A stretch of DNA of 64,000 nt, taken from NCBI RefSeq assembly GCF_000236585.1, contig NC_017278.1:2108001-2172000 (forward strand), written 5' to 3'. A program made the position numbers and the translations under genes. This DNA comes from Thermus sp. CCB_US3_UF1. GTDB taxonomy: Bacteria > Deinococcota > Deinococci > Deinococcales > Thermaceae. This document shows positions 26,476 through 36,624 of the stretch, in pieces; position 1 is the first letter of the stretch; every line of letters begins with the position of its first letter. The notes under the pieces are model-generated. The model ran no database searches and was not told the origin of the DNA. It saw nothing but the letters and a program-made list of their open reading frames with translations.

Positions 26476-26674
26476 GGTTCTGGTCCTGCTGGGGCTTGTC
26501 CTGGTGGCCCTAGGCCTTCTGCTCCTTTATGCCCCCAAGCTCTTCGCCTGGTTCGGCCACCTGCCCGGGGATATCCGAATCGAACGGGAGGGGTTCCGGC
26601 TTTACCTGCCCCTCACCTCCTCCTTGCTGCTCTCCCTGCTCTTGAGCCTGGTCTTGGCCCTGGTGCGGCGCTAG
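26462..26674 (+). CDS. DUF2905 membrane protein
   Basis: 70 residues with two hydrophobic helices around the conserved loop [15 protein letters not shown], the DUF2905 hallmark. Starts at GTG 26462 inside the ROK gene. The last 165 bases are antisense to the 3' end of the SARP-like gene. Confidence 0.85.
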
Positions 26675-28285
26675 GAGGAAAACCCGCTCCTTGCCTGCCC
26701 TGGGGCGGTACAGGCGCAGGGAAAAGGCCACCACCCCCAGGCCGCTCACGGAAACCCGCCAGGGCCCTGGGGGCAGGAGGGCCAGGTAGCGGAAGGGTTG
26801 GCTACGGGCAAAGCCCAGGGTCAGGGCGCCTCGAGGGGTACCTAGGGTCAAGAAGGGCCCCTCCCCTGGCCCCGGGCTGTAGGCCTCCCCCTTCACCTCC
26901 AGCACCAGGCTCTCCTCCAGGGGGGCAAAGTCCAAAAAGGCCTCCTCCCCCGGCTCCAGCAAGGCGGCGGCAAACCCCTCGGGTGCCGCCTCCAAGCCCC
27001 TGCCCTCCCCGGGGAGCAGGGCCTGCTCCCGGCCCAGGCCCAGGAAGCGGTAGGGAAAGGCCTCGGGGGAAAAGGCCTGCCGCAAGGGGGTAGGAAGGAG
27101 GGACCACGCCTCCTCCCCCATGGCCAGGCGCATGAGGGCCTCCTCCCGGGCAAGCCCTGCCAGGGCCAAGGCCGCCGCCGCCCGTTCCTGGAGCTCGCGG
27201 CGCCAGCCTGGGGGCAGGGCCTGGGAAAGGAGGCGGCGCTCCGCTTCCTTGGCGAAACGGTAACCCTCCCGGTACACCAGCCACCCCTTGCGCTCCAGCT
27301 CCCCCAGGTAAGGGTAGGCCTCCAAAGCCTCCAGCACCGGCTCCGGCAGGGAACCCCCCACCACGGAAAGCCGCTCTAGGGCCATGCGGGCCGGCTCGCT
27401 CAGCCAGCGGGCCTGGAGGCGCAGCTGGGCCAAGGGCCGCTGGGGTAGGTCGGCGCAGGCCAGCCAGTCGGCCATCCATTCCGGCTGCCCCCCGGAAAGG
27501 AAGTAGATCCGGGCCGCCTCGAGCAAGGGAAGGCCCGCCAGGGGCCCACGCCGGGCTTCAGACCAGGTAAGGGGCGGAAGGTCCACCACCCGAAGCCGCT
27601 CCGGCGGGTAGTGGGCCCGAAGCTCCAGGAAAGCCCGGGGTTCCTCCCCGGGCTCCAGGTTGAGGACCACGAGCCCGCGGTGGGCCAGGACCTCGCGGAG
27701 AAGGGAAGGGGGAAAGGGCCCTTCCAGGTAGGAAAGCCCCTGGGGGCGAAGCCCTTCGTGGAAGGGCAGGCCCAGGGCCTGGGCCAGGGCCTGGGCCAGG
27801 TCCCGCTTGCCCGCACCCGCCCGCCCTTTCAGGACCAGGACGAGGGGAAGGGGGAGGGTGGCCAGCTCCCGCACCAAGGCCTCCCGGATGGGCACGGGGG
27901 GCCTCCGCTCCCAGCGCAGGCGCACTTCCTGGACCCAGTCCCAGAGTCCCTCCACCGCCTCCAGGCCTTCCAGGACCTCCCCCTGCCCGGTGGCCTCCAG
28001 CTGGATCCAGGGGGGGAGCGCCAAGGGGTCCTGCCCCGGGGGGAAGGGCCGCTCCCCCAGGGCCCGGGCCAGGCGGTGCAGCTCCACCCGCAGGTTTTGC
28101 AAACCGGCCCCGTGCCCGTAGAGGAGGTCGGCCAGGCGGGCCCTGGGAGTAGGCCCCTCCAAGGCCAGGTAGTAGAGGAGGGCCAGGCCCTTGCGGGAAA
28201 GGCGCACCTCCTCCAGGCCGGATAGGAGGCGGGGCCGGCCAAAAAGGGGAAGGGTGTAACGGGGGGGGTTACCCGAGCGTTTCAA
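26510..28285 (-). CDS. SARP-like transcriptional regulator with ATPase domain
   Basis: 591 residues from TTG 28285. Residues 1-80 read as a winged-helix DNA-binding domain of the SARP/AfsR type ([18 protein letters not shown], then ARLADLLYG and [13 protein letters not shown]). An ATPase segment follows, with Walker A GRAGAGKR near 155-162, then a helical region and a beta-rich C-terminal domain (430-530). The last ~55 residues are antisense to DUF2905 and look low-complexity (Q/G/E-rich); a one-base shift would stop the protein at about 26672. It is divergent from the surface operon at 28442, and phased repeats at both promoters suggest it controls that operon and itself. Confidence 0.68.
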
Positions 28286-28390: not shown

Positions 28391-28458
28391 TAGAGCGTCC
28401 TGAGAGGCTCAAGCCTCCCGGGACGGATTAAGGAGGGATGTATGCGCAAAGGGATGTT

Positions 28459-28467
28459 GGTAGCAGT
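28459..28467 (+). repeat. Target-site duplication, left copy
   Basis: GGTAGCAGT directly before the left end of the IS element; an identical copy follows the right end at 29647-29655. Confidence 0.9.
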
Positions 28468-29559
28468 CTATGTACACGTCAAAACCTCCATAGGGCATAA
28501 CCCCAAGGGACTTCCGCGCCTTCCTCCCCCTGCACCCCAGAGGGCAAGCGCCCAAAGGGTGAGCAGGTCCAGCCCCGCCCGGAAGAGGCTCTGTCCCAGC
28601 CTCCCGTGCTTCTTGGGCCTCACCGGACGCACCCGGTGCAGCACAAGCCCCGTCCGAAACGCCCACACGAAGGCCAGGCTCAAGGGGACCAAAAGCCGCG
28701 AAAGCCTCTCCCCCCGCGTCACGTGCGTGGCCTCCAGGTCAAATCCCCGCCCCTTCAGGGCCCCAAAGAGCCGCTCTATCCCCCACCTGAGCCCGTACAC
28801 CTCCAGCACCCGGTGAGGGTCCAGGTCCGTAGCCACAATCAGCCACTCCCGGACCCCAAGGCGCAACCCCACCACCCACATGCGCCGCCCGTAGACCCAG
28901 TACCGCCGCCTGGGCACCCGGCTCTCTCCCACCTTCAGGGAGGCAAAGAGCTCCCAGGCCCGAGGGCCCGAGCCCAACCGCCACATCCGGGTGTTGGCCT
29001 TGATTCGGATGCACCGGGGGATGCCCTTCTCCTCCAGGTACCGGAACCACGCCTCCCCTATGAACTCCCGATCCGCCAGGAACCCCTCCACCCGGAGGTG
29101 GGGGAAGTGGGCCCTCAGGAAAGCCAAGGCCCTCTCCATCAGGGCGATGCGTTCGGGGGTGGAGGAGTTGCCGTCGTGGGGAAGGAAGCTCCAGAACAGG
29201 GGGACGGCCAGGCCTTGGTACAGGAAGGCCAGCATCAGGAGGTTGACCTTGCTCTTCCCCAGCTCCCACTCGGTCCGGTCCATGACCAGGAGGAGCCCTT
29301 GGGGTCGGAGGAGGGCGAAGATGAAGCGGGCATAGCCCTCCCCGTCCAGCCCCGGCCAGGCCAAGAACCGCTGGAACCTTCGGTAGGCGGAGCGGGGGTC
29401 AGGGCTGGCTATGGAGCCGAGGGAAAGAGCGAGTCTGGGGCCGCTTGTGGTGCGGGCGGTGACCAGAGCCATCACCAGGGCGGCCAGGAAGGTGAGGCGC
29501 CTGAGGTCGGCCTTCCAGTATCGCTTCAAGGCGTTGATGAGTGGGGTAAGCTGTTCCAT
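28468..29559 (-). CDS. IS4-family DDE transposase
   Basis: 363 residues, apparently intact. DDE residues are D in VMDRTEW, D in FLADREFIG, and E in the Y-2x-R-3x-E-6x-K signature YGLRWGIERLFGALK. ATG 29559 is favoured by AGGAGG eight bases upstream; GTG 29568 overlaps that site. The stop codon TAG is made by the outermost three bases of the terminal inverted repeat (CTA, 28468-28470). Confidence 0.93.
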   Translation of the reverse strand: MEQLTPLINALKRYWKADLRRLTFLAALVMALVTARTTSGPRLALSLGSIASPDPRSAYRRFQRFLAWPGLDGEGYARFIFALLRPQGLLLVMDRTEWELGKSKVNLLMLAFLYQGLAVPLFWSFLPHDGNSSTPERIALMERALAFLRAHFPHLRVEGFLADREFIGEAWFRYLEEKGIPRCIRIKANTRMWRLGSGPRAWELFASLKVGESRVPRRRYWVYGRRMWVVGLRLGVREWLIVATDLDPHRVLEVYGLRWGIERLFGALKGRGFDLEATHVTRGERLSRLLVPLSLAFVWAFRTGLVLHRVRPVRPKKHGRLGQSLFRAGLDLLTLWALALWGAGGGRRGSPLGLCPMEVLTCT

Positions 29560-29646
29560 GGGGACCACCTCCTATGGGTACCTGCCCATCCACGTGGGCG
29601 CAGGTCCATCCTAAAGGGGTGGTCCCACGTTTTGACGTGTACTGAG
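28468..29646 (-). mobile_element. Complete IS4-family insertion sequence
   Basis: 1,179 bp. The ends are an 18-bp imperfect inverted repeat: left CTATGTACACGTCAAAAC (28468-28485), and right, read inward, CTCAGTACACGTCAAAAC (29646-29629), with two mismatches. It is flanked by a 9-bp duplication and holds one transposase gene on the minus strand. The size, duplication length and YREK-containing DDE transposase fit the IS4 family. Confidence 0.93.
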
Positions 29647-29655
29647 GGTAGCAGT
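29647..29655 (+). repeat. Target-site duplication, right copy
   Basis: GGTAGCAGT immediately after the right end of the IS, identical to 28459-28467. It continues into ATTGGCC, the rest of the interrupted signal peptide. Confidence 0.9.
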
Positions 29656-30464
29656 ATTGGCCCTGGCCCCCTTGGCCCTGGCCCAGATCGTGGCCCCCAC
29701 CACGGGTAACGGCCCGGACGCCGTGGCCAAGGGGGTAAACTCGGCCTCGGTGAACCAGACCATCCAGCTCATCCTGCCCAAGGCCACCGCCTTGCACCTG
29801 GACGTGACCACCCTGACCTTCGACCTCACCGCCTTGGATGGCCCCAACTGGCCCAACTCCGGGGCCGATTTCGGCAACCAGATGGTCTGCGTCTACGGGC
29901 TCCAGGAAGACGATGTGAGCACCAAGCTGGGGGACAACTTCTACAACCAGATCCAGACCCTGCCCCTGGGTACCTACTACGAAGTGGCAAACTGGCCCAA
30001 CATCCGCATCGTAGGGGGCGGCCAGGTCACCGCTTACCCGCCCATCAAGCTGGACAAAAACGGGGAGCTGGTCCCGGGGAGCAAGAACCACTTCGTCTGC
30101 TACCGCTCCTTCATCCTGCAGAAGTTCTCCAACGGCAAGCGGTGGGAGCTGACCGTAAGCCGCAACGACCCGCAAGGCGCCCAGAGCATCCAGCATCTCT
30201 ACATCCAGGACAACCCCTGCGACACCTTCGGCGCCGCCACCGGCCTCTACGCCCTGCCCAACGGGGCCACCCTGCAGCTCGTGCCCAAGAACCTGCAGGC
30301 CGGCCCCACGGGGAGCCGTTCCAACAATAACCCCAAGCAATGCGGCTACAAGAGCTGGCTGGATGACCTGGTGGTGGTGGCCGTAAAGGTCAACGCGGAC
30401 CTCTGGGGCACCAGCACGGCCAACCTCACCTACACCCTCGCCACCACCGCCTGGTAAGCGGCCA

Positions 30465-30496
30465 GGGGCCCAAGCCCCCAAAGGGGCTTGGGCCCC
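30465..30496 (+). terminator. Strong hairpin between subunit and chaperone genes
   Basis: A perfect 14-bp stem (30465-30478 with 30483-30496, loop CAAA) follows the subunit stop codon by a few bases and is followed by GTTCCCCT, a poor T-tract. It may partly terminate transcription or protect the upstream mRNA 3' end, giving more subunit than assembly proteins. Confidence 0.6.
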
Positions 30497-30513
30497 GTTC
30501 CCCTAAGGAACGC

Positions 30514-31359
30514 ATGAAGCGCCTCGTCCCCCTCCTCCTCTTCCTGGCCCTAGGCGGCCTGGCCCAAAGCACCCTGGGGGTAGAGCCCCCGGTCCTCCTC
30601 AAGGAGGCCAAGCCGGGGGACACCCTCACCCACACCCTCCTGGTCCACAACGTGGGCACCCGGCCGGTGCGGGTTCGGGTGAGCCTGGGGGACTGGACCT
30701 ACGACCCCATGGGGAGGATCCAGTTCCTGCCCGTGGGCGCCCTGAAGGAAAGCGCCAGCCCCTGGGCCACCTTCAGCCCAGCGGAGTTCACCCTGGAACC
30801 CAAGCAGTCCCGCCCCGTCACCTACACCCTCACCGTGCCCCGGGACGCCACCCCCGGAAGCCACTGGGGCATCCTCTTCCTGGAGGCAGAAGACCCCAAC
30901 CCCCCTCCCGGCATCCCCCTCGCCACCTTCCGGGTGCGCATGGCCCACGTGTTCTACGTGAACATCCCCCCCTTGCGCACCGCCGGGCGCATCACCGGCA
31001 TCGTGCCCAGCGCCCCCAAGGGCCCCCAGGATCCTTTCCGCTTCGCCATCCAGTACCAAAACACCGGCAACACCGCCCAGAAGCTTTCCGGCCGTTTTGA
31101 GGTGCGGGACCCTTCCGGACGCAAGGTGGCCGAGGTGGCCATCGAGGAAGAGGTGGTCCTGCCCGGACAGGTGCGGATCCTGCCCGTAAGCCTGGTGGGC
31201 CCCCTGCCCGCGGGCAACTACACCGCCTTGGTGGTCCTCAACTACGGCGATCCCGAAAGGGACGTGGCCGCGGACCTGCCCTTCACCCTGCGCGCCCCCC
31301 TGGCCGCTCCCCCAGCCCCCCCCACGCCCCCTGAGGGGGAGAAAGGAGGCACCCCATGA
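30514..31359 (+). CDS. PapD-like periplasmic chaperone of the surface operon
   Basis: 281 residues with a signal peptide (MKRLVPLLLFLALGGLAQS). The mature part reads as two Ig-like beta-sandwich domains. The first has PGDTLTHTLLVHNVGTRPVR and EPKQSRPVTYTLTVPRDATP, and the second starts near 160 (FRFAIQYQNTGNTAQKLSG). The pattern resembles fimbrial chaperones and DUF916-type surface-protein domains, with a Pro-rich C-terminus. The usher-like gene two places downstream supports a subunit-chaperone role in the periplasm. Shine-Dalgarno AAGGA precedes ATG. The stop overlaps the next start (ATGA). Confidence 0.65.
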   Translation: MKRLVPLLLFLALGGLAQSTLGVEPPVLLKEAKPGDTLTHTLLVHNVGTRPVRVRVSLGDWTYDPMGRIQFLPVGALKESASPWATFSPAEFTLEPKQSRPVTYTLTVPRDATPGSHWGILFLEAEDPNPPPGIPLATFRVRMAHVFYVNIPPLRTAGRITGIVPSAPKGPQDPFRFAIQYQNTGNTAQKLSGRFEVRDPSGRKVAEVAIEEEVVLPGQVRILPVSLVGPLPAGNYTALVVLNYGDPERDVAADLPFTLRAPLAAPPAPPTPPEGEKGGTP

Positions 31360-31844
31360 GACCCTGGCTGGCCAGCCTGGCCCTCCTCTTGGCCCCCGCC
31401 CTGGCCCAGGCCACCTGGATCGTCCAGACCCTGATCCCTGAGACCATCGCCCTGCGCACCCCCACCACGGAGATCGCCTTTGACCTCAAGGATTACCCTC
31501 CCAAGAGCTTTCCCGCCATCTATCCCGCCACCAACCTCGAGGGGGGGGTCCTGCCGGTGCAGGTCTTCTCCAACGCCCCGGGGGTCTGGAGCCTCCTCCT
31601 GCAGATCCCCGACCTCAAAGATCCCGGCGGGGCCCTCCTCCTCCCCGCCCGCCAGGTCCTCTACCGGGTGAACGGGGGGCTCTGGCTCCGGGCCGACGGC
31701 ACCCCCCAGATCGTCTACACCCAGGCCGGCCCCACGGCGGGGTGGCTGGAGATCCGCCTGGAGTTCGCCCTCGAGCTTCTGGGCAACGAGCGGGCGGGCA
31801 GCTACGTGGTCCAGGCCCTGGTCACCGCCCTGAGGCAGCCTTGA
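31356..31844 (+). CDS. Small secreted protein, probable minor subunit
   Basis: 162 residues with signal peptide MRPWLASLALLLAPALAQA. The remainder is beta-strand rich, with a late strand pattern (LEIRLEFALELL, AGSYVVQALVTAL) that recalls the C-terminal G.Y.d.v...v strands of spore-coat-U or archaic pilin subunits. No cysteine pair. AAAGGAGG precedes ATG, which overlaps the chaperone stop. One base separates it from the usher-like gene. Subunit identity is inferred from context. Confidence 0.6.
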   Translation: MRPWLASLALLLAPALAQATWIVQTLIPETIALRTPTTEIAFDLKDYPPKSFPAIYPATNLEGGVLPVQVFSNAPGVWSLLLQIPDLKDPGGALLLPARQVLYRVNGGLWLRADGTPQIVYTQAGPTAGWLEIRLEFALELLGNERAGSYVVQALVTALRQP

Positions 31845-31845
31845 G

Positions 31846-34800
31846 ATGAAGCCCCTTTGGGCCCTTCTACCCCTCCTGGCGGGCCTGAGCCTGGCCCAGG
31901 TCCGCCTCACCCTCCCCTCCCCCCTCGCCGGGGTCCCCGGGGAGTACCTGACCCTGAGCCTGCGGGTGGAAGGGCGGGGGGCGGTGCGCTTCCGCCTTTT
32001 TCCCCCGGAAGGCTGGCAGGCCCTCTCCTCGGAACGCCAGGCGGTGCTGGAGGGGAAGGAGGAAACCCTAAGCTTCACCCTCCGCGTCCCCCCCCTGCCG
32101 GCGGGGACCCGGGGGAAGGCCGTGGTGGTGGCCTACGTGGGGGAGCAGGAGGCCGCCCGGGCGGAGGCGGAACTGGCCGTCCTGCCCCTGATCCAGATCG
32201 CCCTTTCGGTTCCCCCCACCCTCGAGGCCGAGCTGGGAGGCCCCTTTGAGTTCCCCGCCTATATCACCAACCGCTCCAACCAGCGGGTGGAGGTCCTCCT
32301 GGAAGCCGAGGCCGCCATGTTCCAGGTCTTCCTGAACCCCCCGGGCCTGGGCCTGGCCCCTGGGGAAACGGGGGCGGTGCGGGTGCTGGTGAGCCCCGAG
32401 GGGCAGATCTCCGCCGGCTACCGCTTCTACATGAAGCTCCGGGCCACCCCCAGGGGCCTGCCCGAGGCCCGGAAGGAAGCCGGGGTCATCGTCCTCTTCC
32501 GCGACCCCCTGGTGGGGGGCCGGAAGGGCAAAGACCCCGAGCTAAGCCTGGGCCTAGGCGTGGGTTTCAGCCTAGGGGCCACCTGGGAAAGGGGCCAGCT
32601 CCGGGGCCAGGTGGGCTACCAGCTCCTCCCCACCCTTTCCGGGGCCCTTTCCGACTACGTCACCGCCACCGCCAGCCCAGGCCCCGTCAGCGGGGACCTG
32701 GAAAACCCCCTGCGCCTCCCCCAGACCCTCACCCTAAGCCTCCGAGGGGAGGGCTGGGAGGCCCGGGCCCAAGGGGGCCCAGGGAGCTTTAGCCTGGCCA
32801 CCGCCTTCCGCTTAGACCCCGTGCGCCTGGGGGTGGAGGGGGGCTACCGTCCCCAGGGGCTGGCCTTCCGGCTGAGCGGGGTCAGCCTGGACAAGGCCCT
32901 GGACCTGCAGGGCAGCCTCAGCACCCAGGCCACCCCCACCGGGCGCCAGGACAGCCTCAGCCTCCGCTACCGCCTGCCCCTGGAGGGAGGGCTCAGCCTA
33001 GGCCTGGGCACGGACCTGGCCGGGCAGGCCGGGGAGGGGTACCGGGTTTCCTTCGGCCTGAGCCAAAGCCTTACCTGGCAGACCCAGGGGCTGGAACTGG
33101 TGCAAACCTATAGCGGCGTGCCCCTGGCGGGCCTCCACGCCCTGGGCCTGGCGGGGGGCACGCGAAGCCTTTACCCTTGGGGCCTCCGGGGGAGCACCAG
33201 CCTGCAGCTGGGCCCCAACCTGGGCCTCTGGCAGAGCCGGCTCAGCCTCTACTACCAGCCCCTTCCCGGCCTCCTCCTCACCCTCACAGGAAGCTACCGC
33301 CAGCAAGGGGAGGAGCGGGGCTTTGGCCTGGCCCCAAGCCTCACCGCCAGCTTCGGCGCGCCCGGGGTGGTCTGGGGAAGCCTCAGCCTGGGCTACGGCA
33401 CCGAGCAGACCCTTTCCGGGCAGGCCCCCGAACGCCAAACCTACCAGGGAAGCCTCAGCCTGGGCACCCGCGAGTTCAGCCTCTCCGGCTACCTGCGCTA
33501 CCTGGCCCAGGAAACCCCCTACCTGGAAGGCAACCTCCTCCTGCGCTATGCCTTTCCTGGGGGGAGCCTCGAGGGGGTCTACCTGGTCAAGCAAGGAGGA
33601 GCCCAGGACCAAAGCCTCTATGGGGTTAGCTGGAGCCACCTCTGGCCAGGAAGCCTGCAAAGCCGCCTCTTTTACGAATACCGCCAGCAACAAGAGGCCA
33701 GCCAGCGCCTGGGCCTCACCCTCTCCCAGCGGAACTTCCTGGAACCGGGCCTCTCCCTGGGGGCCACCTACGCCCTCACCCTCCAGGGGGGCGAGGCCCG
33801 GCACGACTTTGGGCTGAGCCTGGCCTACGCCCAGGCCCTCGCCTTCGCCACCCCCAAGGAGGTGGTGGACCTGTTTGGCGGGCGCAAGGGGGGGGAGGTG
33901 GCCGGCCGGGCCTTCCGCGACACGAACCTGAATGGCCGCCTGGACCCCGGGGAGGAAGCCCTGTCCGGGCTACGGGTCTGCCTGGGCAACACCTGCGAAA
34001 CCACCGACGCCGAAGGGCGCTACCGCCTGGTGGTGGCCCCTGGGGAGGGGAGTTTGCTCTTCGGCAACCTGCCCGCCACCCTGGCCCTGGTGGGGGAGGA
34101 ACGGGTTTCCGTAAGCCTAAACGCCCGCCTGGAAAAGGACCTGCCCTTCGCCCCCGCCACCAGCTTGCCGGTCGTGGTCCTGGATACCGACACCGGCCAA
34201 GGCCTGGCCTTCGCCGGGGTCTGCGCCGAAGGGCCGGTCAAGCGCTGCACCCGGGCCGACGCCAACGGACAGGCCCTGCTGGGAGGCCTCTTCCGCGGAA
34301 CCTACCGGGTCTACCCCGACCCCCGTTTCCTCCCCCAGGGGTACCGGGAGGAAAAGGCAGCCCAGGTCCAGGTGGAGCCCGGAACCCCCCTTGCCGGCGT
34401 CCAGGTGAGGGTGGCCCCCCCCAAGCGGGAGATCGTGGTCACCTACACGGCCGACCGCCTCAGCCTGGTGGCCACCGCCGACCCTCCGAGCCCCCTCGCC
34501 GGGGCGGAGGTGGAGGTGAAGGCCCTGGTCCAAGGGGAGGCTGAGGCGGTATGGCTGGAACTGCCCACGGGGCGGATCCCCTTACAGCCCCAGGGGGAGA
34601 ACTACTATGCCGCCCGGATACGCCTCACCTTGCCCCCTGGCTTCCACAGCCTAAGGGTCCTGGCCCAGGGGCGGGAAGAGGCGGAAGCCCCGCTCTTCCT
34701 CCAGGTCCTTCAGGGGGCCCTCTTCGACCCCCGGGTCCTGGAAGGCCCCAAGGTCCGCCTCACCCTGCGCTTCCGGGCGCGCCAGGTGGCCTTGAGCAAA

Positions 34801-34956
34801 GGGGGGGAGAGCTTTCCCCTAAGGAGCGAAAACGGTTACACCTGGACCGGGGAGGTGCCCCTCGGCCCCGGTCAGCACACCCTCTTGGTGCTGGCCGATG
34901 GGGAGATGCTGGGGCAGGTGGCCCTCAGCATCCCCGCGGAGAGCGCAACGCATTAG
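31846..34956 (+). CDS. Usher-like outer-membrane beta-barrel protein
   Basis: 1,036 residues. Signal peptide (~1-17). Two N-terminal Ig-like/NEW3-type domains (~20-220). A long region of alternating amphipathic strands (~230-670) with many YxxxLxLxLG repeats, reading as a 20-plus-strand outer-membrane barrel. Then an SdrB/carboxypeptidase-regulatory-like domain (~683-735: GRAFRDTNLNGRLDPGEEAL, TTDAEGRYRLVV), as occurs in archaic fimbrial ushers after the barrel. Three or more beta domains complete the C-terminus. I infer a secretion or assembly pore for the subunits encoded upstream. A plain outer-membrane porin with surface domains is the alternative. Confidence 0.65.
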   Translation: MKPLWALLPLLAGLSLAQVRLTLPSPLAGVPGEYLTLSLRVEGRGAVRFRLFPPEGWQALSSERQAVLEGKEETLSFTLRVPPLPAGTRGKAVVVAYVGEQEAARAEAELAVLPLIQIALSVPPTLEAELGGPFEFPAYITNRSNQRVEVLLEAEAAMFQVFLNPPGLGLAPGETGAVRVLVSPEGQISAGYRFYMKLRATPRGLPEARKEAGVIVLFRDPLVGGRKGKDPELSLGLGVGFSLGATWERGQLRGQVGYQLLPTLSGALSDYVTATASPGPVSGDLENPLRLPQTLTLSLRGEGWEARAQGGPGSFSLATAFRLDPVRLGVEGGYRPQGLAFRLSGVSLDKALDLQGSLSTQATPTGRQDSLSLRYRLPLEGGLSLGLGTDLAGQAGEGYRVSFGLSQSLTWQTQGLELVQTYSGVPLAGLHALGLAGGTRSLYPWGLRGSTSLQLGPNLGLWQSRLSLYYQPLPGLLLTLTGSYRQQGEERGFGLAPSLTASFGAPGVVWGSLSLGYGTEQTLSGQAPERQTYQGSLSLGTREFSLSGYLRYLAQETPYLEGNLLLRYAFPGGSLEGVYLVKQGGAQDQSLYGVSWSHLWPGSLQSRLFYEYRQQQEASQRLGLTLSQRNFLEPGLSLGATYALTLQGGEARHDFGLSLAYAQALAFATPKEVVDLFGGRKGGEVAGRAFRDTNLNGRLDPGEEALSGLRVCLGNTCETTDAEGRYRLVVAPGEGSLLFGNLPATLALVGEERVSVSLNARLEKDLPFAPATSLPVVVLDTDTGQGLAFAGVCAEGPVKRCTRADANGQALLGGLFRGTYRVYPDPRFLPQGYREEKAAQVQVEPGTPLAGVQVRVAPPKREIVVTYTADRLSLVATADPPSPLAGAEVEVKALVQGEAEAVWLELPTGRIPLQPQGENYYAARIRLTLPPGFHSLRVLAQGREEAEAPLFLQVLQGALFDPRVLEGPKVRLTLRFRARQVALSKGGESFPLRSENGYTWTGEVPLGPGQHTLLVLADGEMLGQVALSIPAESATH

Positions 34957-34981
34957 AGGATTGGGAAAGGAGGAATTGGGT

Positions 34982-36151
34982 ATGCGGTATTGGTACGGCA
35001 TTCTTTTGGCGGTGGGGCTTCTGGCGGCCTGCTCGCAAAGCCCCCAAGGGGTGAACCCCCAGGCGGTGGTGGTGCCGGCTTCGGTGACCGTGGAGAAGAC
35101 CGCGGTCCCCAAGTTCAAGCGCACCTACCGCTGGACCATCGCAAAGCAGGTAACCGACCCCGCGAGCGGTACCCTCACCCTGGCCACCGGCCAGGCCTAC
35201 ACCTTGAAGTACGCGGTGAACCTTCTGGGAACCCCCACGGATTCGGACTTTAGGGTGGAGGGCAGGGTGACCATTCGGAACACGGGCAGCGTGCCGGTGG
35301 AACTGCAAGCCCCCACGGACACCATCACCCCGGGCGGGATCGGCGTGACCCTGAACTGCGGGGTCACCTTCCCCTATACCCTTTCGCCCGGAAGCAGCTT
35401 GGTCTGCGACTACAGCCAAGCTCTGCCCGATGGGCAAAGCCGCACCAACAGCGTGGCGGTGAGCTGGTCCGGCGGGGGGCAAAGCGGCACCGCCACCGCC
35501 CAGGCGGGCTTCAGCTTCACCAACCCCACGGAGGTGGTGGACGGCAGCGTCACCGTGAGCGACCCCTCGGCCACCTTGGTGAGCAGCATCAGCGGCATCG
35601 ACCCCCAGGGAGTCATCTCCCAGACGCACTTCTTCGAACGCACGGTAAGCTTTGACCGCTGCGGGGAGTACCGGGTGGAGAACACCGCCACCTTCACCAC
35701 CAACACCACCGGCACCCAGGGCTCCGCCTCGGCCACGGTCCAGGTGAACGTGCCCTGCGTAGGCGGCTGTACCCTGACCCAGGGCTACTGGAAGACCCAC
35801 TCCCGGTATGGCCCCGCCCCCTACGACGACACCTGGGCCCAGATCGGGGAGGACACCCCCTTCTACCTCTCGGGCAAGGGCTACTACCAGGTCCTCTGGA
35901 CCCCGCCCTCCGGGGGCAACGCCTACTACATCCTGGCCCACCAGTTCATCGCCGCCAGGCTGAACATCCTGAACGGGGCCGCCACCACCCCTGCCGTGGA
36001 TGCCGCTTTGGCCTGGGCCCACACCTTCTTCCAGACCTATAGGCCCACGGATAGCCTGAGCAAGGCCCTGGCCAACCAGGCCAAGGGGTACGCCGCCACC
36101 CTGGACAGCTACAACAACGGCTACATCGGCCCCGGACACTGCTCCGAGTAG
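34982..36151 (+). CDS. Lipoprotein with TQGYWK-type domain
   Basis: 389 residues. Lipobox LLAAC gives a lipidated C17. Residues ~30-255 are Ig-like beta domains with DUF11-like repeats and cysteines (LNCGV, LVCDYS, FDRCGEY). A C-terminal domain follows (~260-389), starting GCTLTQGYWKTHSRYG and ending GHCSE. This TQGYWK module is seen on many secreted bacterial proteins and has no known function that I can name. ATG 34982 has AAAGGAGG at eight to nine bases. Probably the surface-exposed tip or anchor component of the operon (inference). Confidence 0.7.
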   Translation: MRYWYGILLAVGLLAACSQSPQGVNPQAVVVPASVTVEKTAVPKFKRTYRWTIAKQVTDPASGTLTLATGQAYTLKYAVNLLGTPTDSDFRVEGRVTIRNTGSVPVELQAPTDTITPGGIGVTLNCGVTFPYTLSPGSSLVCDYSQALPDGQSRTNSVAVSWSGGGQSGTATAQAGFSFTNPTEVVDGSVTVSDPSATLVSSISGIDPQGVISQTHFFERTVSFDRCGEYRVENTATFTTNTTGTQGSASATVQVNVPCVGGCTLTQGYWKTHSRYGPAPYDDTWAQIGEDTPFYLSGKGYYQVLWTPPSGGNAYYILAHQFIAARLNILNGAATTPAVDAALAWAHTFFQTYRPTDSLSKALANQAKGYAATLDSYNNGYIGPGHCSE

Positions 36152-36160
36152 GAGGAGAGG

Positions 36161-36583
36161 ATGAAAAAACTTGGCCTTCTCCTCCTGGCCCTGGCCGCCT
36201 GCACCGCTCCCCAGGGCATCCGCACCACGGGCAACCTGAGCATCCAGGCGGTGCAGCCCGACGTGGTGGCGGGGTGCGTGGTGCGGGCGGGAGACTGGAT
36301 GCTCCTCAAGGGCAACACCTTTGGCAGCCAGGCGGACTGGGATGCGGGCACCAACTACGCCCTCTTCCCCCCGGACCTCCCCGCGGAAGACCCCGAGATC
36401 ACCCAGGCGGAAAACCCCGCCACCCTGATGTTCCGGGTGCCCCAGGGGGCGCAAAGCGGGATCCTGCGCGTGCACGTGGAAGGCGTAGGGGATGCGGAAA
36501 TCCCGGTCAACGTCCAGGCCCTGGGGGTGCAGATGGCCGTCCCGGGGTGCGAGGTACCCGCACCCCCGCCGCAGCCCAACTAA
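36161..36583 (+). CDS. Small lipoprotein, last gene of the surface operon
   Basis: 140 residues. Signal peptide with lipobox ALAAC (C14). The mature part resembles one IPT/TIG-like beta domain (VRAGDWMLLKGNTFGS, then MFRVPQGAQSGILRVHVEG). Two cysteines (GCVV, PGCEVP) and a Pro-rich tail. AGGAGGAGAGG precedes ATG. Followed by a strong terminator. Confidence 0.7.
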   Translation: MKKLGLLLLALAACTAPQGIRTTGNLSIQAVQPDVVAGCVVRAGDWMLLKGNTFGSQADWDAGTNYALFPPDLPAEDPEITQAENPATLMFRVPQGAQSGILRVHVEGVGDAEIPVNVQALGVQMAVPGCEVPAPPPQPN

Positions 36584-36597
36584 GGCCGTAGGGCCCA

Positions 36598-36624
36598 CCC
36601 TCCCCGCCAGGGCGGGGAGGGTTT
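36598..36624 (+). terminator. Terminator of the surface operon
   Basis: An 11-bp perfect stem (36598-36608 with 36611-36621, two-base loop) followed by TTT. It ends the operon just before the converging folE stop codon. Confidence 0.82.

Follow-up and report, generated by a model that had tools for sequence, protein, structure and literature searches.

A six-gene operon of Thermus sp. CCB_US3_UF1 probably represents a separate chaperone-usher (CU)-like lineage of the Deinococcota, which would export and polymerise immunoglobulin (Ig)-like subunits. The operon lies at positions 28442-36583 of the 64,000-nucleotide stretch of the 2.26-Mb genome that was analysed here (the window; Table 1). Its genes, in series on the + strand, encode a major secreted subunit, a two-Ig periplasmic chaperone-like protein (hereafter the chaperone), a small secreted subunit, an outer-membrane usher-like barrel protein (the barrel protein) and two lipoproteins. 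An earlier note on this DNA had proposed a CU-like operon of five genes, perhaps of a lineage of its own; the list of open reading frames (ORFs) gives six genes, and the data agree with a separate lineage. We find the operon to be real and conserved, and computation supports its parts list, its gene order, its conservation, the remote homology of the chaperone and the barrel protein to archaic CU systems and the kinship of the two subunits. Judged by the tests made on its sequences, it is not a member of the archaic CU family, and it is a variant of the CU kind that, on present evidence, would operate in a like manner and is unnamed as far as we searched. Pfam and NCBIfam scans named no operon part as a whole.

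We examined how widely the operon is shared. At E ≤ 0.001, the barrel protein was matched in 40 of 111 Deinococcota genomes (some matches being partial), and near full-length relatives occurred in 13 of the 27 Thermus genomes, the window's included. Barrel relatives showed 52% identity in the sister genus (G071) and 32-37% identity in other families of the order. Among the carriers are Thermus composti, T. altitudinis, T. caliditerrae, T. arciformis, T. igniterrae and T. tenuipuniceus as well as several Deinococcus; on three Deinococcus plasmids, the annotation calls the products of all four core genes hypothetical proteins. Profile searches showed that the order subunit-chaperone-small subunit-barrel is kept in 26 of the 27 systems with sufficient upstream sequence (from 22 genomes and five Deinococcus plasmids, counted by hand from the search output), a recurrence beyond chance, which bears out the expectation that these genes would be co-located in other genomes. 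With G091 and G094 counted once, since they share 99.9% identity over 8.3 kb, the fairer figure is 25 of 26; G010-G012 are mutually 90-94% identical. The count omits six systems with short flanks or at contig ends (G066, G045, G058, G019, G090 and G021), the first four of which have the chaperone, the small subunit and the barrel together. Lipoprotein 1 was found 3' of the barrel gene in all 11 of the 22 genomes that belong to Thermus or the sister genus, with a weak opposite-strand match in Deinococcus sp. NW-56, and lipoprotein 2 was present in 17 of the 24 systems with downstream sequence. Outside the Deinococcota, limited searches found no barrel relatives: the plasmid search returned four records, all from Deinococcus, and a scan of genome contigs with two strict peptide patterns returned eight loci, all in Deinococcota, a result that leaves room for relatives elsewhere. 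The chaperone query of plasmids returned five Deinococcus and two Clavibacter records, and the small subunit query three Deinococcus records and one weak Streptomyces match.

The first link to CU systems comes from the chaperone. Its AlphaFold model consists of two Ig-like domains (pLDDT 75.7, pTM 0.62, 9 sequences) and, in keeping with the original description as chaperone-like, matches both CU chaperones and WxLIP over the two domains. With this model Foldseek ranked RbmA first and WxLIP second (E 1.0e-9) and also returned CfaA, FimC and CsuC (6fqa, E 6.2e-07). The top VIA rows aligned the second domain alone with glycoside hydrolases; the best two-domain match was WxLIP 9i25_C (Z 12.5, root-mean-square deviation (rmsd) 10.1, 224 aligned), followed over both domains by FimC 3jwn_I (Z 11.4, rmsd 7.0, 183 aligned). 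The large rmsd values may reflect a differing domain angle. CsuC was not among the 50 VIA matches listed, an absence that is given no weight. At the sequence level, the chaperone profile matched eight archaic CU chaperones at 96.8% (score 74.7, 218 columns), compared with a maximum score of 19.6 in 60 shuffles and 12.7 for the reversed control, while it reached 22.5% against five classical chaperones and 14.3% against EcpB. In the N-terminal domain, a Trp present in 8 of 12 rows and a Pro present in 10 of 12 align with counterparts that are invariant in archaic chaperones. Furthermore, R142 and H145 are invariant in all 13 chaperone rows, and the strand that bears them shows, by eye, alternating hydrophobic residues, as a donor strand would.

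The same protein also resembles WxLIP, which raises the chief alternative, one that we consider unlikely: a WxL/WxLIP-like scaffold in a diderm, in which the two-Ig protein would be a lasting structural partner rather than a recycled chaperone, binding Ig-like surface proteins and perhaps peptidoglycan, with the barrel exporting or anchoring them and no fibre being polymerised. Besides the VIA result, this is favoured by the weak Pfam match seen most often in the chaperone family, WxLIP_PGBD (8 of 13 members, best E 0.0009), for which the window's chaperone scores 17.4 bits, below the Pfam cut-off of 27.3; 'Flagellar-associated PapD-like' was weakly matched by two members (best E 0.0068). The chaperone profile reached 97.7% against one Clavibacter DUF916 protein (score 89.8; maximum of 60 shuffles, 21.2) and 79.7% against four WxLIP proteins of lactic acid bacteria (score 45.3; maximum of 40 shuffles, 18.0), whereas generic NEW3 Ig proteins reached 1.4% against the WxLIP set. 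In the loci of lactic acid bacteria examined and in PMC10599100, WxLIP genes moreover adjoin genes for small and large partners. This signal is uneven, however: against the WxLIP set, the chaperone orthologues reached 56.4%, the paralogues 1.1% and the Clavibacter protein 34.1%, while archaic chaperones alone gave 50.5% and classical ones 0.5%. The archaic CU score also exceeds that of the WxLIP set, but the Clavibacter score surpasses both. The scaffold is further disfavoured by the lack of a profile link between the subunits and WxL (0.8% and 0.1%), by the lack of an obvious C-terminal transmembrane helix in the chaperone (by eye) and by the finding that no annotated outer-membrane barrel stands beside the WxLIP genes examined. 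A PDB sequence search with the chaperone alone gave nothing useful; with the chaperone profile, WxLIP came first (E 0.0067), which proves nothing alone, because an unknown protein (2qsv, E 0.011) and a cellulosomal scaffoldin (5n5p, E 0.037) follow close behind. Taken by sequence, the Thermus chaperone family looks placed between archaic CU chaperones and WxLIP, with the CU side the firmer. Separately, a WxLIP-like stretch, otherwise Gram-positive, was seen on a Klebsiella pneumoniae plasmid (CP069367.1, 102085-102462) and may be contamination or misassembly.

The second link comes from the barrel protein. It comprises two Ig domains (about 20-220), the barrel (about 232-668), an SdrB-like domain, a carboxypeptidase-regulatory-like domain and two more Ig-like domains. 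The SdrB-like domain had been described as one found in archaic ushers; SdrD_B was indeed matched in 14 of 14 barrel members at E ≤ 0.1, but Pfam found no such domain in any of four archaic ushers scanned at E ≤ 0.01. FimD chains took Foldseek ranks 1-4 in the PDB (E 1.7e-14 to 3.5e-14, 761-787 columns), and VIA aligned FimD 9fy9_D with residues 226..856 of the model (Z 16.9, rmsd 10.4, 431 aligned), that is, past the barrel into the C-terminal domains. The barrel profile matched seven archaic ushers at 96.0% (score 86.8) over profile columns 530-837, which cover the barrel end and the C-terminal domains; the controls scored 23.8 (maximum of 60 shuffles), 40.8 (reversed) and 19.1 (four TonB receptors). 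Orthologues alone gave 95.4% and paralogues alone 86.3%. Against the Deinococcota archaic ushers alone the orthologues reached 43.4%, and against the proteobacterial ones alone 62.5%, so that neither set by itself gives the full signal. A PDB sequence search with the barrel protein alone gave nothing useful.

The third line of evidence is the kinship of the subunits. Profile comparison of the small with the major subunit gave 97.4%, and their sequences indicate that the two are homologous. In the major-subunit alignment, Cys78 and Cys148 are invariant in all 16 rows. W-x-L-like stretches seen by eye led us to consider the subunits as WxL domains; Pfam WxL had no match in them, and the idea was dropped on the profile values given above. 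The major-subunit profile had five PDB matches, the best being a leucine-rich-repeat protein (E 0.0014) that was taken as unrelated, and the small-subunit profile had none. Judged by sequence, the subunits look like a family of their own.

A number of results weigh against a CU relationship. For the subunits, SCPU was not matched in 16 major-family and 12 small subunits at E ≤ 0.1, and profile comparison with SCPU pilins gave 4.4% and 0.6%. For the chaperone, a search of 13 family members at E ≤ 0.1 gave no PapD_N match, an absence that is informative because PapD_N does find archaic chaperones of Deinococcota (four of four positive controls matched, three of them from this phylum). The orthologous chaperones alone match archaic ones over the first domain only (89 columns, 95.0%), compared with 93.9% over 207 columns for the paralogues. 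Since a generic NEW3 Ig control reaches 42.5 (68.5%) against the N-terminal domain of the chaperone, and only there, part of the signal in that domain is general; this control rests on 9 of the 14 rows of the NEW3 alignment, as the ORFs for L096, L099, L101, L102 and L103 look like another gene. The conserved archaic Tyr-Arg pair of strand F1, which we take to include the subunit-binding arginine described in PMC4654587, aligns with Trp-Gly in the new chaperone.

For the barrel protein, the model has a pLDDT of 73.7 but a pTM of only 0.38 (9 sequences). The FimD Foldseek matches have TM-scores of 0.27-0.39 and rmsd values of 17-19, and the next two ranks, 5 and 6, go to Ig-repeat proteins of the ciliary apparatus. 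In VIA, TonB receptors score as high as FimD or higher on the barrel alone (Z up to 17.6). The match to archaic ushers weakens in pieces (barrel 50.4%, C-terminal part 21.5%), and classical ushers (2.5%, score 31.8) and EcpC (0.3%) were not matched by the barrel profile. Pfam Usher matched none of 14 barrel proteins and none of the 111 genomes; the latter absence says little, because known ushers of Deinococcota are missed or score low, three archaic ones lying below the cut-off of 27.1 bits (no match, 16.2 and 22.3). The earlier note had expected a barrel of about 24 strands with a plug and an usher N-domain. The model, at its low confidence, has about 26 strands over residues 232-668, and a plug would have little space within its barrel stretch of about 440 residues. 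Neither the plug (archaic profile: barrel 0.1%, classical ushers 97.1%, EcpC 1.1%) nor the usher N-domain (barrel 0.1%, classical ushers 79.8%, EcpC 0.3%) was found by a profile test that is weak, as it also missed the usher EcpC; both are likely absent from the barrel protein. The CU interpretation of that note is partly supported: the profile and fold links of the chaperone and the barrel protein speak for it, the likely lack of a plug and an N-domain and, at low confidence, the strand number against it. The N-terminal Ig pair of the barrel protein resembles NEW3 domains (93.0%); the idea that this pair is a built-in copy of the chaperone (96.7%) was dropped, as generic NEW3 Ig proteins match the region at 93.0%.

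Several of these points would also suit a porin or transporter with Ig-like surface partners, whose likeness to CU systems would come from common folds serving another envelope function. TonB receptors and OprD-type porins (near E 1e-7 in Foldseek) also match the barrel, and generic NEW3 Ig proteins share much of the similarity seen in the chaperone N-domain. We nevertheless regard this explanation as very unlikely: Foldseek puts ushers first, the FimD alignment runs beyond the barrel while the listed TonB rows stop at it, the archaic usher profile match exceeds its controls, and homologous secreted subunits flank the chaperone in nearly all the systems counted above.

For a separate CU-like lineage, the most likely mechanism is as follows. 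The subunits would enter the periplasm by the Sec route, as their signal peptides (by eye) suggest, and the two-Ig protein would most likely hold them via the conserved strand after residue 137. The barrel protein would then take the subunits and pass them across the outer membrane; its C-terminal domains would play the part of their usher counterparts, and the two Ig domains at its N-terminus that of the usher N-domain. Once exported, the subunits may polymerise into a fibre or a surface layer, with donor-strand exchange as the probable means, and the lipoproteins could be tip, anchor or accessory parts. A broader and rather unlikely idea is that this export system of the Deinococcota is an evolutionary bridge: its chaperone would belong to one superfamily with archaic CU chaperones and WxLIP, and CU pili and WxL clusters would both descend from a single system that handled subunits by donating a strand and that survives here with an usher lacking a plug.

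Table 1. Features of the operon and its surroundings (positions in the window)
Feature	Positions	Strand	Remarks
Divergent conserved-family gene, putative regulator	26510-28285	-	591 aa; P-loop-like stretch by eye
Major secreted subunit gene, interrupted	28442-30457	+	Uninterrupted in relatives, e.g. L041 (82.7% identity)
Insertion sequence (IS) element	28468-29646	-	Transposase 28468-29568 on - strand; flanked by 9-base direct repeats
Major subunit remainder, 3' of IS	29657-30457	+	From ORF list
Two-Ig periplasmic chaperone-like protein	30514-31359	+	281 residues
Small secreted subunit	31356-31844	+	162 residues; by sequence, homologous to major subunit
Outer-membrane usher-like barrel	31846-34956	+	1,036 residues
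Lipoprotein 1	about 34982-36151	+	Downstream of barrel in Thermus and sister genus
Lipoprotein 2	36161-36583	+	140 aa
GC-rich hairpin, possible two-way terminator	36597-36622		11 pairs, loop of 4; between convergent genes; by eye

The layout of the operon agrees with the tight order and coupled starts first described: the small subunit ORF overlaps the chaperone ORF by 4 bases, and the barrel ORF opens 1 base past the small subunit stop. Signal peptides and lipoboxes (LLAAC, LALAAC) are likewise present as described, being recognised by visual reading of the translations. The terminator claimed for the end of the operon has a counterpart in the GC-rich hairpin, but this is trailed by a short T run only and was not picked up by the pattern scans. 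The divergent gene, whose family lies upstream in 20 of the 25 systems with upstream sequence, had no Pfam match at E ≤ 0.01; it may be a regulator of the SARP/BTAD-like kind.

The split of the major subunit gene by an IS was also correctly noted. The 9-base direct repeat GGTAGCAGT stands on each side of the element (28459-28467 and 29647-29655), which cuts the gene inside the signal-peptide region and which we take to be of the IS4 type. The genome holds 10 copies that are 100% identical over 1,170 bases, and such identity suggests a recent spread. A profile search of the genome found no second gene of the major-subunit family at E ≤ 0.001. Because the IS interrupts the gene and no other family copy was found, this strain probably makes no major subunit; the insertion should stop its production.

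Variants of the system were also observed. The one exception to the gene order is D. deserti (L076), in which the chaperone alone was recognised. At that plasmid locus (6444-10292), the diverged chaperone is annotated as a FimB/Mfa2 fimbrial subunit and is followed by an 839-residue carboxypeptidase-regulatory-like protein unmatched by the barrel profile; the locus may be a further variant of the system. An extra subunit-like match stands beside the small subunit in three systems (L047, L056 and L068), and in AB2017081 (L077) the small subunit was recognised only at E 2e-06. Four Thermus genomes (L051, L052, L054 and L059) contain a further, related system, which has two or three subunit genes and whose barrel is about 952 residues long; a match with such an open frame occurred in 9 of the 27 Thermus genomes, shorter pieces in two more, and none was seen in the window's genome. 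Two genes are split over two reading frames, the barrel gene of G052 (L060, 4998-8113) and the chaperone gene of G001 (L048, 3244-4099), each a possible pseudogene or assembly error.

The known Thermus appendages are type IV pili, and surface or biofilm material that does not consist of type IV pilins could stem from this second assembly system, which has no name so far. Structural work, too, would gain thermostable parts from a Thermus system. Should the plug really be lacking, one has to ask how an usher gate works without it. As the chaperone is linked both to CU chaperones and to WxLIP, the origin of the two systems becomes testable.

Canonical CU systems also occur in this phylum. PMC4654587 reports archaic CU systems in Deinococcus-Thermus; in the open literature, with subscription journals and preprints mostly uncovered, searches on CU-like systems of Thermus or Deinococcus and on WxL/WxLIP proteins gave, among the papers listed, no title or opening of an abstract on the present system. 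The earlier statement that no Thermus example had been described therefore agrees with our searches, with the qualification that archaic CU systems were already on record for the phylum. PapD_N was found in 1 of the 111 genomes (G003, L071), where a chaperone and a 735-residue usher-like ORF lie beside an SCPU gene, and canonical chaperone-usher pairs are present on plasmids of Deinococcus sp. NW-56 and D. radiodurans (L079 and L080). Because the NW-56 plasmid carries both the canonical archaic kind and the new system, the latter is not simply the local form of archaic CU. In NW-56 (L079, 2625-4586 and 5920-8761), a member of the divergent-gene family was also seen upstream of the canonical pair (E 2e-18).

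Compared with archaic (sigma) CU systems such as Csu pili, the Thermus operon likewise combines a secreted subunit, a two-Ig chaperone and an outer-membrane barrel, and shares profile similarity in the chaperone and in the barrel end and C-terminal domains. It differs in that its parts have no PapD_N or SCPU match and no detectable plug or usher N-domain; its barrel protein adds N-terminal NEW3-like Ig domains and post-barrel SdrB-like and carboxypeptidase-regulatory-like domains; and it has an extra small subunit between chaperone and barrel, plus two lipoproteins. In each of the five annotated archaic operons examined on proteobacterial plasmids, the gene for a spore-coat-U pilin comes first, followed by those for the chaperone and the usher. 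With the classical FimC-FimD system of type 1 pili, the operon shares the chaperone and barrel folds but no clear sequence link (chaperones 22.5%, ushers 2.5%). With the WxL/WxLIP (DUF916-DUF3324) clusters of Gram-positive bacteria, in which AlphaFold predicts that a hairpin strand of DUF916 inserts into WxL (PMC10599100), it shares the fold and sequence of the chaperone, and in both a gene for a two-Ig protein adjoins genes for small and large partners. By contrast, no WxL was detected in the Thermus subunits and no transmembrane helix was seen in the chaperone, and an outer-membrane barrel stands in place of the cell-wall attachment.

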